This document shows positions 2,369 through 9,059 of a DNA stretch of 35,236 bases, piece after piece. The stretch spans positions 1 through 35,236 of the forward strand of contig CANHCM010000004.1 in the NCBI GenBank assembly GCA_947459155.1, in the 5' to 3' direction. Positions within the stretch are counted from its first letter, which is position 1, and every line of letters begins with the position of its first letter. The notes under the pieces are model-generated. The model made no database searches. It was not told the origin of the DNA and saw nothing but the letters and a program-made list of their open reading frames with translations. A program made the translations under genes and the position numbers. This stretch comes from Bacteroidota bacterium (GTDB taxonomy: Bacteria > Bacteroidota > Bacteroidia > M30B66).

Positions 2369-3232
2369 ATGAAAATAGCCGTGTTGATTAATCCGCTCTC
2401 GGGGGGAATCAATAAGAAAAGCCTGCCAGACCGCCTGAAAAAGGTAATGCCGGCGCAAACGCTGATTCATACAAGCCAATCGGCCGAAGATACCCGAAGC
2501 TTTGCCGCCTATTGCCGAAATGAGCAGTTTGATGTTCTGGTGGTGGCCGGAGGCGATGGAACCTTAAATGATGCAGGCACTGCCCTGTGTGGAAGCCAAA
2601 CAGCCCTCGCCATTTATCCGCAGGGTTCGGGCAATGGCCTGGCGAGATTGCTGGGGGCAAAGTCGCAGCCCGAAGCCCTTGCTCAATCGTTGCAACAGGC
2701 CAAAGCCGCATGGATAGACACCGGTAAAGTAAACGAACGTACTTTTTTAAATGTAGCCGGCGTTGGCTTCGATGCCCATATTGCAGAGCGCTTTGCCTCG
2801 AATGCTGTTCGCGGTTTTGCCGGCTATGTGTCGGAAACACTGTCGGCTTTTGGGCAATACAAGCCCGAAACCTACCGGGTGCGTGCCGGGGAACACACAC
2901 AAGATATTGAAGCATTTCTGTTGACCATTTGCAATGGAAGCCAGTATGGCAACAATGCATGGATTAGTCCACAATCGAGTGTTACCGACGGAGTGCTGGA
3001 GCTGACGGCCATTGCTCCGATTGGCTGGAGGCAAGCGCCGGGCCTCATTTACGGACTGTTTTCGAAACGCATTGGGCAACACAAGACCGTTACGCAGCTG
3101 AGCTCGAGCATTTTTGAGATTAGTCGGGAACACGAAGGTCCGGTGAATATCGACGGCGAGTTTGAAAGGATGGGAAGGGAACTGCGGTTTGAGGTGATTC
3201 CGTCGAGTTTGCGGGTGCTGATGCCAGCCTGA
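2369..3232 (+). CDS. Diacylglycerol kinase family lipid kinase (YegS/BmrU-like)
   Basis: VVAGGDGTLNDAG, YPQGSGNGLAR and VNIDGE motifs of the DAGK catalytic family. Confidence 0.85.
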   Translation: MKIAVLINPLSGGINKKSLPDRLKKVMPAQTLIHTSQSAEDTRSFAAYCRNEQFDVLVVAGGDGTLNDAGTALCGSQTALAIYPQGSGNGLARLLGAKSQPEALAQSLQQAKAAWIDTGKVNERTFLNVAGVGFDAHIAERFASNAVRGFAGYVSETLSAFGQYKPETYRVRAGEHTQDIEAFLLTICNGSQYGNNAWISPQSSVTDGVLELTAIAPIGWRQAPGLIYGLFSKRIGQHKTVTQLSSSIFEISREHEGPVNIDGEFERMGRELRFEVIPSSLRVLMPA

Positions 3233-3316
3233 AACCATTTACACCATCATGCACCGAAGGCCCTCAACAAAGGTGTACGGCTGTTTGGAAAAGCGCCAGC
3301 GGGTGCAGCGAATACC

Positions 3317-3350
3317 CCTTGTAGGGGCGGCTCGTTGCCGCACTACAAGG
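3317..3350. repeat. Intergenic inverted repeat (CCTTGTAG...CTACAAGG) with an inner GGCGGC/GCCGC stem; REP-like element or terminator
   Basis: Perfect 8-bp arms at 3317-3324 and 3343-3350, enclosing a second GC-rich inverted repeat, in a GC-rich intergenic patch. Confidence 0.6.
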
Positions 3351-3560
3351 AGTAGCAGCGAAACACGCGGTGCCCGGCCCTGCAGCCGAGGCGAAATGTG
3401 ATGCCCAGCGAGGCAGGCGCCCAAAAACAGATAATGAATAAACGCTTATGAATTGTTGATTGTCTGAGCATTACATCAATACATCCAGAATATTTTCGGG
3501 CATTTTAAACGCCTCCCCATTTGGATGGTCAGCCCTGCTACTAACGCTAAACCAACACCG

Positions 3561-3812
3561 ATGAACCTGCGACTGAAGAACAACATTGCTGTGAGCGATT
3601 CCGGCTTTGTGTTCAATCCATCTACCGGCGATTCCTTTTCGATTAATCCGGTGGGCATCGATATCATTCAACTGTTGCGGGCGTCGAAGTCTGAGCAGGA
3701 CATTATCGAAGACCTTTCGGACCGATACGACGCCGATACGCAAACGATTGAAAAAGACCTGTACGATTTTTTCACGCTGCTTCTACAGCATCAGCTTGCC
3801 GAAAAAGCATGA
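3561..3812 (+). CDS. PqqD family (RRE-like) small protein
   Basis: GFVFNPSTGDSFSINPVGIDIIQLLRASKSEQDIIEDLSDRYDADTQTIEKDLYDFFTLLLQHQLAEKA follows the PqqD family pattern (tG..f.lN..G..i..ll.....s..eI...l...yd.....ie.D...f...L...gL). Start taken at the internal ATG 3561. Confidence 0.75.
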   Translation: MNLRLKNNIAVSDSGFVFNPSTGDSFSINPVGIDIIQLLRASKSEQDIIEDLSDRYDADTQTIEKDLYDFFTLLLQHQLAEKA

Positions 3813-4852
3813 AGAGTGAGTTGGTCATTGCCGTTTCGGGGCTGAACAATACCGACAACCCCGGTCCCGGCATTCCGGTAATCCGCGCACTGCGCGACTG
3901 GAAAGGGAAAAAAGTACGCATCATCGGTCTTTCGTACGATCATCTGGAGCCGGGTTTGTATTTACCCGAATGGGTTGATAAAAGCTATCAAGTGCCTTAC
4001 CCATCGGCAGGTTCAGACAATTTGATGCTTCGTTTAAAGTACATTCACAGTATTGAAAGGCTGGATTTCATCTTTCCCAACTTCGATGCAGAGCTGTTTT
4101 CGTACATGAAGATGGCACCGGAGTTACAAAGCATGGGCATTCACACCTTTTTACCCGGGCTCGATCAATTTGAGGAAAGGCACAAATACCGTTTGCCGGA
4201 ATTTGGAGAGAAGTATCAATTGGCTGTTCCTAAATCGCTGAGCGTAAACTCACTTGCTGATGTACCGGCAGCGCTGAGCCAATTTGAGTTTCCGGTGGTG
4301 GTGAAGGGTAAATTCTACGAGGCTTACATTGCGTATTCGATGGATCAGGTGCAGAATTATTTTCACAAGATTCAGGCGAAGTGGGGCTTACCGGTTATTT
4401 TCCAGCAGTTTATTCAGGGCAACGAGTACAACGTGGTGGCTATGGGTGATGGCAAAGGGAACACCATAGGCGCCGTACCCATGCGCAAGCAATACATTAC
4501 CGATAAAGGAAAAGCCTGGGCCGGCATAACGCTCGATGAGCCGGCGCTGATTGAAATGACCAGAAAGCTCATTGCGGCCAACCACTGGAGAGGCGGCATG
4601 GAGCTGGAGCTGATTAAAGACCGCAATGGTCAATTGTACATAGTCGAGATTAACCCAAGATTTCCGGCCTGGGTTTATTTAGCCGTAGCGGCTGGTCAGA
4701 ATATGCCGGCGGCGGCCGTGAAGCTGGCTCTTGGCGAGGATGTTCCTCCGTTTGAAAGCTACGAGGTGGGGAAGATGTTTGTTCGTTACTCCTGGGACAA
4801 CATTGTGAACCTCAGCGATTTTGAGAAAATATCAACCTTAGGAGAACTCTAA
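3809..4852 (+). CDS. ATP-grasp domain protein (CarB/PylC-like carboxylate-amine ligase fold)
   Basis: FPVVVKGKFYEAYIAYS, VIFQQFIQGNEYNVVAMGDG, GGMELELIKDRNGQLYIVEINPRFPAW (metal-binding E..N). ATGA overlap with the upstream PqqD gene. Confidence 0.82.
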   Translation: MKSELVIAVSGLNNTDNPGPGIPVIRALRDWKGKKVRIIGLSYDHLEPGLYLPEWVDKSYQVPYPSAGSDNLMLRLKYIHSIERLDFIFPNFDAELFSYMKMAPELQSMGIHTFLPGLDQFEERHKYRLPEFGEKYQLAVPKSLSVNSLADVPAALSQFEFPVVVKGKFYEAYIAYSMDQVQNYFHKIQAKWGLPVIFQQFIQGNEYNVVAMGDGKGNTIGAVPMRKQYITDKGKAWAGITLDEPALIEMTRKLIAANHWRGGMELELIKDRNGQLYIVEINPRFPAWVYLAVAAGQNMPAAAVKLALGEDVPPFESYEVGKMFVRYSWDNIVNLSDFEKISTLGEL

Positions 4853-4858
4853 CGAAGC

Positions 4859-6220
4859 ATGGAAAAGAAAAGATATGAGCGCCCGGTTATTGCGTCACTC
4901 AATGCGGGCATCACCAATAAGTTCGGCACCCGAAATCTGAACGAGCCCATTTCGCATATCGATGGGGCCTCGATTAAGGAGATTACGGAGCAGTATGGTT
5001 CGCCGGTATTTATTCTTTCGGAACGAAAAATCCGCCAGCTCTACCGCGACGCGCACAGGGCATTCAGCACGCGGTATCCGAAAGTGCAGTTTGCCTGGTC
5101 TTACAAGACGAACTACCTGAACGCCGTTTGCAATGTTTTCCATCAGGAAGGCTCCTGGGCCGAGGTGGTGTCGATTTTCGAGTACGAAAAAGCGTTGGCC
5201 AATGGTGTTGAAGGCCGACACATCCTTTTCAACGGGCCCGAAAAAACCGAGTCGGATCTTCGGAAGGCCATTGAGCACGATTCGTTGATTCACATCGATC
5301 ATTTTGATGAGCTTTACCAATTGCTCGAAATGAGCGAAAGCCTGAAAAAGAGGCCACGGGTTGCCATTCGGGTGAACATGGATACAGGCATTTACCCTAT
5401 GTGGGATCGCTTTGGGTTTAACTACGAAAGTGGGCAGGCCTGGGATGCCATCAATAAAATTATCCTCACCAACAAGCTCGACCTCGTTGGGCTGCATTGC
5501 CACATCGGCACCTTTATGCTATCGGCGAATGCCTACGCTGTGGCGGCGGCTAAGCTTGCCGATCTGGCGTTGGGCATTAAGCTGCATCACAAGCAAAACA
5601 TCGAATACCTTGATTTGGGCGGCGGCTTTGCCTCAAAAAACACCTTAAAAGGCTCGTTTTTACCGGGTGCCGACACCATTCCGAGTTTTGATGATTATGC
5701 AGAGGCCATCTGCGGCACCTTGCTCAACGCCGGCTTTACCCGCGAAAATTTACCCATGTTGATTTTAGAAACCGGTCGCGCCTTGGTCGACGAAGCCGGA
5801 TTTCTGGCCGCCTCAGTGGTGGCCAACAAGCGCTTGAGCGATGGTCGGAAAGCCTTGGTGCTCGATGCAGGAGTGAACATCTTGTTTACCTCCTTTTGGT
5901 ACGAACACAAAATGACGCCCGTTGAGCCGGCCAGTCACCACACCGAAGCCTCAGTGGTGTATGGTCCGCTGTGCATGAACATCGACGTTGTGCGCGAAAG
6001 TGTAACTTTACCGCCATTGCGAAAAAACGATCTCGTGCTTATTCATACCGTTGGCGCTTACAACATGACGCAATGGATGCAGTTTATTGCCATGCGGCCG
6101 GCGGTGGTTATGGTCGATCAGGAAGGAAAAACGCACCTCTTGCGCAGGGCTGAGAAAACCGACGACCTCAACGCCATGGAATCTATGCCCGAACACTTAC
6201 AATCCTTTAGTTTGGCGTAA
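4859..6220 (+). CDS. Group-IV PLP-dependent decarboxylase/alanine-racemase-fold enzyme (LysA-like), with about 25 aa N-terminal extension
   Basis: FAWSYKTN (PLP lysine), LVGLHCHIGT, YLDLGGGF, LILETGRALVDEAG, YGPLCMNID motifs. Confidence 0.85.
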   Translation: MEKKRYERPVIASLNAGITNKFGTRNLNEPISHIDGASIKEITEQYGSPVFILSERKIRQLYRDAHRAFSTRYPKVQFAWSYKTNYLNAVCNVFHQEGSWAEVVSIFEYEKALANGVEGRHILFNGPEKTESDLRKAIEHDSLIHIDHFDELYQLLEMSESLKKRPRVAIRVNMDTGIYPMWDRFGFNYESGQAWDAINKIILTNKLDLVGLHCHIGTFMLSANAYAVAAAKLADLALGIKLHHKQNIEYLDLGGGFASKNTLKGSFLPGADTIPSFDDYAEAICGTLLNAGFTRENLPMLILETGRALVDEAGFLAASVVANKRLSDGRKALVLDAGVNILFTSFWYEHKMTPVEPASHHTEASVVYGPLCMNIDVVRESVTLPPLRKNDLVLIHTVGAYNMTQWMQFIAMRPAVVMVDQEGKTHLLRRAEKTDDLNAMESMPEHLQSFSLA

Positions 6221-6223
6221 TTG

Positions 6224-8443
6224 ATGCACAAAAAATGGAGTTTGAAGTCAGTATCGTCTTTCGCCGAAGGCGTATTGAACTCCTATGCCCAGGTTTTCTT
6301 CTCGCAGCGAAAATCGCTGGCGGTACTCCTGTTGTTACTCACGTTCATCGACTACCAGGCCGGAATTAGCGGCTTGTTTGCGGTTGTTATAACCCAACTT
6401 ACTGCGCGTGTGCTGGGTTTGGATGACACAAGCATACAATCGGGGCTCTACAGTTTCAACAGCCTTTCGGTAGGCCTTTGCTTAGGCGTTTACTTTAACC
6501 TGAGCCTGCCCTTTCTGGCCCTGGTGGCCGTGGCCTCGCTGCTGAGCCTGCTCCTCACCGTGTGGATTGGCGGTGCGCTTTACCCCAAAGGCCTGCCTTA
6601 CCTGAGTTTTCCCTTTATCATCACCATTTGGCTAAGCCTGATGGCCTCACGTTCTTACGAAGCCCTGATGCTCAGTGAGCGTGGAATTTACATCTACAAT
6701 GAGCTCTACACGCTGGGCGGACAGGGCTTTGTTGACGCATACATGCAGCTCGAAAACTCTGCTTTCCCGCTGCATTTGGATGTGTACCTCAGATCGCTGG
6801 GAGCCCTGTTTTTTCAGTACAACCTCATTGCCGGCTTTATTGCAGCAGTGGCCCTGTTGATTTACTCACGCATTGCCTTTGCCTTCTCGCTCACCGGCTT
6901 TTACACCGGCTTTATGTTTTACCATTTTCTGGGCGGAAACATTACCGAACTCACCTATTCCTTTATTGGATTCAATTTCATTTTAACAGCCATTGCCCTC
7001 GGCGGATTTTTCCTCATTCCTTCCGCCTGGTCGTTTCTGCTGGTTATGGTTGTTTCTCCGCTCATTGCCCTGTTGAATTCGGCCTTGTCGGGTTTGCTCT
7101 GGGCCTGGCAGCTGCCTTTGTATTCCATGCCCTTCAATCTGGTGGTCATCGGATTGCTCTACCTCTTGCGCATGCGCAGTAAGGTTCGCTATCTCTTTCT
7201 TACACCGGTTCAGCATTATTCACCGGAGATCAACCTCTACAGCTTCAACACGGGCACCGAACGGTTCAAAGGCTCGCCCTCCATTGCCTTTCAGCTGCCT
7301 TTTTATGGCCGGTGGACCGTAACGCAGGCATACAACGGGAAGCACACACACCGCGAGGCCTGGAGACATGCGCTCGATTTTATGCTTTGCGATGAAAACG
7401 GCGAAACACACGAGGGCGGAGGCTTCGAGCTCAAGAATTACTTTGGTTGGCAGAAGCCTGTTTTAGCCCCGGCCGATGGGCTGGTAGTAGACCTTCACAC
7501 GACCATCGACGAAAACCAACCCGGCAAGGTGAACTTAGAAAACAACTGGGGCAACTCGGTGGTCATCAAGCATGGCGAGCAGCTCTACTCGCAGATTTCG
7601 CATTTGCTAACCGGTTCATTTCGGGTGCATTTGGGGCAGTATGTGAAGAAGGGCGAAATTCTGGCCTTGTTGGGGAACTCCGGGCGTTCGCCTTTGCCGC
7701 ACATTCACTTTCAGATTCAGTCGACCCCATACGTGGGCTCAGCCACAGTGCCTTACCCTTTCGGCTATTATTTAAAGTATGCCGAGGGCCGGCAAAGCCT
7801 GATGAGTTTTTCGACTCCGGTAGAAGGCGATCAGATTCAGAATGTGGAGATCACGCCCTTGCTTCGCGATGCTTATTCGTTTATTCCCGGACAGATTCTT
7901 CAGTTCAAGGTAACCGAGGCCCGTAAAACCTATACGGTGCGATGGGAAGTTAGGGTGAGTGCATACAACCAGGTTTACCTGTATTGCTTTAAAACACGGT
8001 CGGTGGCTTACCTTCATAACAATGGAACGATGTTCTATTTCCTGAGCTTTCACGGCGACAAGAAAAGTCTGCTTTACCACTTCTATCTTTCGTCGTACCA
8101 GGTTTTACTCGGCTTTTATCCTGAGATTTTCCTCCGCGACACCTTGCCTGTTCATACGGTAAACAGTGGAATTGTGAGGGTTGTACAGGACTTTCTGGCG
8201 CCTTTCGTGCGGTTTCTCAAAGTGGAGTTTCAACTGGAGTACACTCACATCGACAACCTGTTTACTCCGCGAACACTCGGCTTGCGGTCGGAGGTTCGCA
8301 CCAGTTCGGCCGGAATTGGACAGCAACGCTATCACTTCGAAATTCACATTGCGAAAAACCAGATCGACCAGCTTCACATTAAATTCGGGAATCGCCGAAT
8401 TCTGGCCGAACGACAAAACGAGTACGAAACCACAGAACCCTAA
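6224..8443 (+). CDS. Fusion membrane protein: N-terminal urea transporter (UT)-like domain, M23/LytM peptidase-like domain, C-terminal beta-rich region (ORF extends to TTG 6221)
   Basis: N-terminus: DYQAGISGLFAVVITQLTARVLGLDDTSIQSGLYSFNSLSVGLCLGVYF resembles the UT family. Middle: HALDF...PVLAPADGLVVDLH...GNSVVIKHGEQLYSQISHLLTGSFRVHLGQYVKKGEILALLGNSGRSPLPHIHFQI resembles M23. Confidence 0.78.
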   Translation: MHKKWSLKSVSSFAEGVLNSYAQVFFSQRKSLAVLLLLLTFIDYQAGISGLFAVVITQLTARVLGLDDTSIQSGLYSFNSLSVGLCLGVYFNLSLPFLALVAVASLLSLLLTVWIGGALYPKGLPYLSFPFIITIWLSLMASRSYEALMLSERGIYIYNELYTLGGQGFVDAYMQLENSAFPLHLDVYLRSLGALFFQYNLIAGFIAAVALLIYSRIAFAFSLTGFYTGFMFYHFLGGNITELTYSFIGFNFILTAIALGGFFLIPSAWSFLLVMVVSPLIALLNSALSGLLWAWQLPLYSMPFNLVVIGLLYLLRMRSKVRYLFLTPVQHYSPEINLYSFNTGTERFKGSPSIAFQLPFYGRWTVTQAYNGKHTHREAWRHALDFMLCDENGETHEGGGFELKNYFGWQKPVLAPADGLVVDLHTTIDENQPGKVNLENNWGNSVVIKHGEQLYSQISHLLTGSFRVHLGQYVKKGEILALLGNSGRSPLPHIHFQIQSTPYVGSATVPYPFGYYLKYAEGRQSLMSFSTPVEGDQIQNVEITPLLRDAYSFIPGQILQFKVTEARKTYTVRWEVRVSAYNQVYLYCFKTRSVAYLHNNGTMFYFLSFHGDKKSLLYHFYLSSYQVLLGFYPEIFLRDTLPVHTVNSGIVRVVQDFLAPFVRFLKVEFQLEYTHIDNLFTPRTLGLRSEVRTSSAGIGQQRYHFEIHIAKNQIDQLHIKFGNRRILAERQNEYETTEP

Positions 8444-8453
8444 AACCAACCTT

Positions 8454-9059
8454 ATGCGCTACACGCTTGTATTATCATTTTGCCTGTTTTTCGGCCTTTT
8501 GCAGGCCAACGATGAAAAAGTGCTCCTCGCCTTCAAGCAGAGTTATTCGCTCGAAGCCAAATCGGAATACACCAAAGCCATTGCTGTTTTGAAAGAGGTT
8601 TACGATGAGAACTCATACGAGATAAACCTGCGTTTGGGCTGGCTTTGTTATTCTGCCGGACAGTTTGCCCAAAGCATGAGTTATTACCAGAATGCCATCA
8701 ACCTAAAACCTTATTCGGTTGAGGCCAAGCTGGGTTATGTTTTACCGGCATCGGCCGCCGGAAACTGGGACCAGGTTGTGGTGCAGTACAAGAAAATTCT
8801 CGAGTATGATGCCCAGAACTCTTTGGTGAACTTCAGACTGGGCATGATTTACTATGGCCGAAAAGACTACCAGACCGCCCAAAAATACTTCGAGCGGGTG
8901 GTGAACCTTTACCCTTTCGATTACGACGGCAATGCCATGTTGGCCTGGAGTTATCTGCAAATGGGGAAAATGCGTGAGGCCCGCGTAGTGTTTGGCAAAG
9001 CACTGCTAATTCGTCCCGACGATGCCTCGGTTTTAGAAGGCCTTTCGTTGATCAAGTAA
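8454..9059 (+). CDS. Secreted/periplasmic TPR protein
   Basis: N-terminal signal peptide MRYTLVLSFCLFFGLLQA followed by several TPR-like repeats (FRLGMIYYGRKDYQTAQKYFERVVNLYPFD). The listed ORF from 8181 is over-extended into the upstream gene. Confidence 0.75.
   Translation: MRYTLVLSFCLFFGLLQANDEKVLLAFKQSYSLEAKSEYTKAIAVLKEVYDENSYEINLRLGWLCYSAGQFAQSMSYYQNAINLKPYSVEAKLGYVLPASAAGNWDQVVVQYKKILEYDAQNSLVNFRLGMIYYGRKDYQTAQKYFERVVNLYPFDYDGNAMLAWSYLQMGKMREARVVFGKALLIRPDDASVLEGLSLIK

Follow-up and report, generated by a model that had tools for sequence, protein, structure and literature searches.

A conserved five-gene cassette of Bacteroidota that links a predicted amino-acid conjugate pathway to a urea transporter-M23 fusion protein

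The window analysed here is a stretch of 35,236 nucleotides from a Bacteroidota bacterium (contig CANHCM010000004.1, assembly GCA_947459155.1; the genome is 87% complete), and it carries, between positions 3561 and 9059, five tightly coupled genes that form the cassette considered in this work. The first of them (3561..3812, + strand) encodes a small PqqD-like protein with the fold of a recognition element (RRE) of ribosomally synthesised and post-translationally modified peptides (RiPPs). Its match to PF05402 (48.0 bits, with a curated cut-off of 23.4) was obtained as expected by an earlier, sequence-only reading of this DNA, which had named this match as a check. Alignment of the family places the start of this protein at ATG 3561, and gives no support to the upstream ATG at 3525. 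Next on the + strand come an ATP-grasp ligase of the PRK12767/carbamoyl-phosphate synthetase (CPS)-like type (3809..4852; Pfam ATPgrasp_Ter, 45.6 bits with a cut-off of 29.1, and ATP-grasp_3), a pyridoxal phosphate (PLP)-dependent decarboxylase of alanine racemase fold (4859..6220; Orn_Arg_deC_N, 105.5 bits with a cut-off of 23.4), a fusion of a urea transporter (UT) with an M23 peptidase domain (6224..8443; UT PF03253, 187.4 with a cut-off of 25, and M23, 53.1 with a cut-off of 28.7), and an exported-type tetratricopeptide repeat (TPR) protein with a signal-like N-terminal sequence (8454..9059; TPR_2, 70.5 with a cut-off of 27). Within the UT-M23 protein, the urea-transporter fold is encoded at about 6272-7165, the M23 domain at about 7298-7765 and a C-terminal beta domain at about 7766-8443. 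Positions, strand and coupling of all five open reading frames (ORFs) are as the sequence-only reading had described them: the PqqD and ATP-grasp genes share a 4-nt ATGA overlap, a gap of 6 nt separates the ATP-grasp gene from that of the decarboxylase, and 10 nt separate UT-M23 from TPR. The fusion could start at TTG 6221, directly after the decarboxylase stop, or at ATG 6224; the latter is probably its start, as is ATG 8454 for the TPR protein.

It is almost certain that these five genes form a real, co-inherited and conserved cassette. When 396 Bacteroidota genomes were searched with the UT-M23 protein, the fusion was found in 34 of them (frame-split in G005, and shorter, 535 aa, in G256), and a profile of the ATP-grasp enzyme returned the same 34 genomes, plus one much weaker match (E=3e-31). 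Across the loci found with UT-M23, the order PqqD>ATP-grasp>decarboxylase>UT-M23 is kept on one strand, with a single insertion, in L064. A scan of named genomes gave at least 570 ATP-grasp relatives, and neighbourhoods were counted for the best 80 of these: the PqqD gene lies upstream of the ATP-grasp gene in all 80, the decarboxylase follows directly in 77 of 77, and UT-M23 comes next in 63 of the 65 loci with room for it. Overall, the conserved order was seen in more than 110 loci, and the carriers, judged by depositors' titles, include Bacteroidales, Cyclobacteriaceae, Balneolales, Flavobacteriales, Chlorobi, Kapaibacterium and Neomarinimicrobiota. Culturable species of Algoriphagus, Cyclobacterium and Marinifilum are among the named genomes with the cassette. 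Such a neighbourhood analysis with these two queries had been proposed earlier, and its outcome supports the idea of a co-inherited operon which joins a cytoplasmic biosynthetic half (PqqD, ATP-grasp and PLP decarboxylase) with an envelope half.

The cassette is patchy even inside the genus of the window. In G399 it lies between the same lipid kinase and 9093-type gene as in the window; in two genomes of the same genus (G397 and G398; loci L193 and L195) the site is empty, with the lipid kinase adjoining the 9093-type gene, followed by MsrA. Because the empty site and the occupied one are at the same place, the five genes were gained or lost as one block. As regards single loci, an apparent second copy of the cassette in G124 (L062 and L065, at the ends of contig C1) consists of sequence common to both contig ends, and is probably an untrimmed circular overlap. 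In L060 (8444-10698), UT and M23 fall into two frames that overlap at a T homopolymer; as evidence on topology this split was rejected as uninformative, since it is likely a homopolymer frameshift from sequencing.

The decarboxylase was placed in the FslC/FigC group of conjugate decarboxylases by its nearest structure, its position in the tree and mapping of its active site. The nearest solved chain is 7kh2, N-citrylornithine decarboxylase (E 3e-58), and all operon copies group with FslC, apart from LysA, with support of 99/99, in a tree in which the branch of FslC is long and may or may not lie outside the operon set. The score against the LysA model TIGR01048 is 217.7 bits, below the curated cut-off of 297.9; in the 24 carrier genomes tested the operon copies likewise fall below this cut-off, and a separate canonical LysA exceeds it in 20. 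The glutamate of the LysA CESxD motif (position 355 of FigC) is methionine in 34 of 34 sequences, and the LysA arginine at 327 is also gone. On the score, the separate LysA copy, the tree and the active-site residues, a LysA (diaminopimelate decarboxylase) role was rejected. Thus, of the earlier description of this protein as a LysA-fold PLP decarboxylase, the activity was retained and the kinship to LysA was replaced by membership among the conjugate decarboxylases. The score against the FslC equivalog NF041039 is also below its cut-off (235.3 bits, cut-off 500). When plasmids were searched for informative relatives, those found were distant (27-31% identity among the matches listed), many of them annotated lysA.

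What this enzyme may act on is suggested by the residues lining its active site. Equivalents of the catalytic K63 and C354 (FigC numbering) are found in all 34 sequences, and those of R290, T327, Y331, M355 and Y383 are retained with few exceptions (Phe for Y331 in three sequences, Ser for T327 in one). In FigC, the latter five residues were assigned to amide and chain contacts, and H357 and R387 to citrate contacts, by docking predictions (PMC7857480). The citrate contacts are replaced in every sequence (H357 by Ile, R387 by Gln), and T330 is Trp, again in 34 of 34. Because the amide and chain contacts are kept and the citrate contacts lost, the substrate is probably an amino acid conjugated through its side chain to something other than a citryl group. 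A citrate-based siderophore like rhizoferrin was rejected as the product for want of the citrate contacts. FigC itself has been placed together with SbnH, AcsE, MccE and BtrK, which act in the synthesis of siderophores, microcin or butirosin (PMC7857480).

The UT-M23 protein was identified by its Pfam matches, its AlphaFold2 (AF2) model, Foldseek and residue conservation. The model (pLDDT 90.5) contains a complete UT fold, a LytM-type domain and a beta-rich C-terminal domain, and Foldseek relates it to dvUT (3k3g; E 8e-15, TM 0.83 of target) and to the LytM domain of DipM (7qrl; E 6e-7). Among 30 sequences of the fusion, the zinc and catalytic residues of the M23 domain (H377, D386, H461, H494 and H496) are invariant. 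The domain could be taken for a degenerate one, with the first histidine seemingly missing and an arginine at the usual HxxxD place; this is explained by the invariant H377 further upstream.

Lysine and arginine residues average 10.3 on the M23 side of the UT domain and 1.8 on the other, the former number being higher in 30 of 30 sequences; the UT repeat topology leaves both termini on one side, and no hydrophobic segment strong enough to form a further transmembrane helix was found after the UT domain. Because of these three features, the M23 domain is predicted to face the cytoplasm. The loop assignment is based on the inverted repeat and on helix prediction rather than on coordinates, and it agrees with the published extracytoplasmic placement of the T5a-Pb loop (PMC4357013).

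Conservation of the UT filter bears on the cargo. Glutamine 24 of the Si site is kept in 24 of 30 sequences; at the So site (E187 in dvUT, Gln in mammals) Ala, Leu or another hydrophobic residue is found, and neither Glu nor Gln among the residues listed for the 30 sequences. Because the So-site glutamate is lost in all of them, urea is an unlikely cargo, and simple urea transport by the UT protein is likewise unlikely. An operon for the salvage of urea or nitrogen, with a true urea channel, would agree with the UT fold, with the presence of both LP..PF signature motifs in most sequences and with the Si-site glutamine; however, given the So-site change and the lack of any urease or urea-cycle gene among the conserved members of the cassette, we regard it as very improbable.

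The cassette could also be seen as a device for recycling or remodelling of peptidoglycan. In this scheme, M23 would trim imported muropeptides, the ATP-grasp enzyme would join them, and the carboxylate at the D-centre of their meso-diaminopimelate would be removed by the decarboxylase. M23 domains do cut cell-wall-type peptides, and the decarboxylase is a distant relative of diaminopimelate decarboxylase which has lost the residues typical of a site for the free amino acid. However, muropeptides are far too large for a UT pore, the conserved cassette contains no known recycling gene, and less than a tenth of the sampled phylum carries it, so we find this scheme hard to credit.

Most loci contain a sixth gene, encoding a signal-peptide-bearing beta-barrel protein of outer-membrane type (OMP), which separates the UT-M23 gene from the TPR gene or else follows the latter directly. 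These barrels are of three types, OMP7 with an N-terminal TPR part, and OMP6 and OMP19 consisting of the barrel alone, which are remotely homologous to one another (hhalign probabilities 95-97%). Their character as outer-membrane proteins is predicted from the nature of the sequences and from weak porin matches. A hydrophobic N-terminus occurs in 94-97% of TPR and OMP family members (94% of 94 for TPR) and in about none of the three enzymes. The family of the window has no barrel gene in its operon (L066, L198, L200 and L201), and an OMP7 homologue is present at the end of another contig of the same genome (C108; L147 8360-8935; BLAST E 1e-10, HMM E 4e-30). By eye, this homologue was seen to lie downstream of a SufB-like gene. 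The five genes listed by the sequence-only reading are thus correct, and the list has to be extended by the barrel and by the AraC-type regulator discussed below.

With these exported components in mind, one can consider a periplasmic M23 domain that cuts open or reshapes the peptidoglycan and so lets TPR and OMP form a conduit. This was close to the original suggestion of coupling to the cell wall through M23, and it is consistent with the intact zinc site and with the signal-like N-termini of both partners. It conflicts, however, with the UT-fold termini lying on the lysine- and arginine-rich side in all 30 sequences and with the missing additional helix. Fold and charge bias thus predict a cytoplasmic M23, so that wall coupling is not supported and a periplasmic role of this domain is quite unlikely.

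In the ATP-grasp enzyme, the residues expected to bind ATP and metal (K166, E206, E280, N282 and R284) are invariant. Its AF2 model (pLDDT 91.6) is closest in Foldseek to the uncharacterised CPS-like 2pn1 (E 9e-22), followed by biotin carboxylases, CPS, L-amino acid ligases and PylC. The fold and these residues predict a carboxylate-amine ligase. The PqqD family has conserved G, F and N; across 34 sequences, no position with a residue suited to substrate attachment (Ser, Cys, Lys, Asp or Glu) is invariant. A covalent carrier similar to BtrI or LysW was rejected, as there is neither such a residue nor a conserved C-terminus.

A separate problem is whether the PqqD protein serves a peptide. No conserved small ORF was found in or around the more than 110 loci, and recurrent small ORFs considered as precursors appear to be out-of-frame readings of the gene for the upstream AraC-type regulator or of flanking genes that the loci share. 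Neither does the cassette include a radical SAM or other RiPP maturase, its conserved members being PqqD, ATP-grasp, decarboxylase, UT-M23, OMP and TPR; in both respects this survey bears out what had been noted for the window. Because no invariant attachment residue and no conserved linked small ORF exist, a covalent carrier and a linked RiPP precursor are both unsupported. A RiPP pathway would then require that PqqD acts as an RRE holding a precursor encoded elsewhere, which is modified by the ATP-grasp enzyme and the decarboxylase, and freed of its leader by the cytoplasmic M23 before export. Besides the PF05402 match, such a pathway would accord with the predicted location of M23 beside the enzymes, with the action of MccE, a member of the FigC-type group, on a modified peptidyl-nucleotide (PMC8503589), and with the statement that RRE-dependent clusters are strongly indicated where a PqqD-like protein is encoded close to regulators, enzymes and transporters (PMC7470986). 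However, with neither a small ORF at the loci nor one of the usual maturase partners, we consider it rather unlikely.

Genes adjacent to the cassette differ between lineages. In 31 loci the gene of an AraC-type regulator precedes the cassette in the same orientation, mostly by 300 nt or less (for example, L084 3356-3955, L124 6967-7626 and L131 54-641, plus 28 other loci); the regulator has a conserved Cys, and the matches of its N-terminus to HMA/CopZ-like models are weak, far below the cut-offs. Twelve more loci, for the most part from a different lineage, have a gene for a type IX secretion system (T9SS)-sorted FG-GAP protein upstream of PqqD (L045 5218-6057 and similar loci among L046-L059), possibly as a lineage-specific extra member. 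Such neighbours suggest that some lineages regulate the cassette by a thiol or metal signal and that it has a context at the cell surface, neither being universal. A DUF2202 gene lies shortly upstream of the cassette in five loci (L145 6781-7518 and four others).

The regulator invites the proposal that the ligase and the decarboxylase make a metal-binding amide-amine, whose synthesis is metal-regulated through the heavy-metal-associated-like N-terminus. The closest characterised decarboxylases do serve siderophore synthesis, and the conserved Cys, the CopZ-like matches and the DUF2202 genes could be read in the same sense. Nevertheless, the CopZ-like matches lie far below the model cut-offs, the window's copy has no such regulator beside it, the citrate contacts are lost throughout, and a synthetase of nonribosomal-peptide-synthetase-independent siderophores (NIS), a TonB-dependent receptor and a major facilitator superfamily (MFS) exporter are not among the conserved members. 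A metallophore of this type seems improbable.

Upstream of the cassette in the window, the lipid kinase gene ends at 3232, leaving 328 bp, much of which is filled by a dispersed intergenic repeat (3293..3420, no strand assigned) outside the operon. Positions 3250-3420, used as a query, gave about 50 matches in the same genome, and the repeat holds the inverted repeat CCTTGTAG...CTACAAGG.

In the light of these results, the best-supported model is that of ligation, decarboxylation of the conjugate, and membrane-side processing with export, although we put it forward tentatively and with more doubt than confidence. In the cytoplasm, the ATP-grasp enzyme would couple the side chain of an amino acid to a second molecule, forming an amide or a similar bond; the PqqD protein may hold a peptide on which this takes place. 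The alpha-carboxylate of the conjugate would then be stripped off by the FslC-like PLP enzyme, leaving an amine. The cytoplasmic zinc-dependent M23 amidase or peptidase of the fusion might trim or release the product, which could exit through the UT pore, and the periplasmic TPR protein and the outer-membrane barrel, encoded elsewhere in this genome, would complete its passage out. Catalytic residues of the decarboxylase, M23 and ATP-grasp enzymes are all intact; order of the reactions, direction of transport and identity of the product are what we infer. The earlier idea that the operon builds an amino-acid-derived small molecule or conjugate and exports it is thus supported as far as a cytoplasmic biosynthetic half and an envelope half are concerned, and is not supported for coupling to the wall, M23 being predicted to lie in the cytoplasm.

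Several points weigh against this model. Molecules that pass a UT pore are neutral and very small; a conjugate could exceed this size unless M23 first frees a small part of it. As members of the M23 family are normally exported, a cytoplasmic one, placed there by predicted topology, would be unusual. The role of PqqD is unexplained without a peptide, and product, substrate and direction of transport enter the model as suppositions. The barrel gene of the window's genome is cut by a contig end in an assembly that is itself incomplete, and in L075 and L108 the genes for PqqD, ATP-grasp and decarboxylase occur with no UT-M23, OMP or TPR nearby. It is possible, if somewhat doubtful, that the six genes represent an undescribed class of system, found in Bacteroidota and neighbouring phyla, in which a UT fold with a cytoplasmic M23 amidase releases the small product of an ATP-grasp enzyme and a conjugate decarboxylase directly into the pore, and a TPR protein and a barrel specific to the system provide the way out.

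The cassette occurs in about 9% of the sampled Bacteroidota species and has at least 570 ATP-grasp matches, seemingly without a name or a function. The labels of its families (PqqD, LysA-like decarboxylase, urea transporter, M23) are likely to mislead metabolic reconstructions into urea uptake or lysine synthesis. If the topology is true, a channel fused to a cytoplasmic protease would be an addition to the known membrane machines, and a widespread exported amine metabolite would be predicted.

A literature search for this gene combination, covering open-access papers and not subscription journals, returned no description of such a system. Every part belongs to a known family, and the whole, the channel-protease fusion above all, apparently matches no system found there. 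With dvUT (3k3g) and UT-A/UT-B, the cassette protein shares the whole fold, both inverted repeats and the signature motifs, but it adds the C-terminal M23 and beta domains, has lost the So-site Glu and shows 20-24% identity in fold alignments. Its M23 domain has the fold and the full zinc and catalytic set of DipM, ShyA and lysostaphin, but it is fused to a channel, predicted to face the cytoplasm, and has a longer spacing between the first two zinc ligands (H377 and D386). The PqqD protein shares with RRE proteins the domain match, but not the precursor peptide and the radical SAM partner.

In its enzymes the cassette resembles two known pathways. FslC/FigC, which act with the NIS synthetase FslA/FigA in the rhizoferrin pathway, have in common with the cassette enzyme the decarboxylase fold, the clade, the catalytic Lys and Cys and the predicted amide and chain contacts, and in FslA/FslC ligation comes first and decarboxylation second, which is the logic proposed here. 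The cassette differs in the replaced H357 and R387, in having an ATP-grasp enzyme instead of a NIS synthetase, and in its entirely different envelope partners. In butirosin side-chain synthesis (BtrJ/BtrK/BtrI), the ATP-grasp ligase BtrJ is followed by a decarboxylase of alanine racemase fold which acts on the conjugated amino acid, as proposed for the cassette; the carrier there is an acyl carrier protein, BtrI, in contrast to a PqqD protein with no invariant attachment residue, and the cassette has no oxygenase or transferase. By analogy, the best-supported model is that the cassette works like FslA/FslC and BtrJ/BtrK in its first two steps, while being a member of neither.

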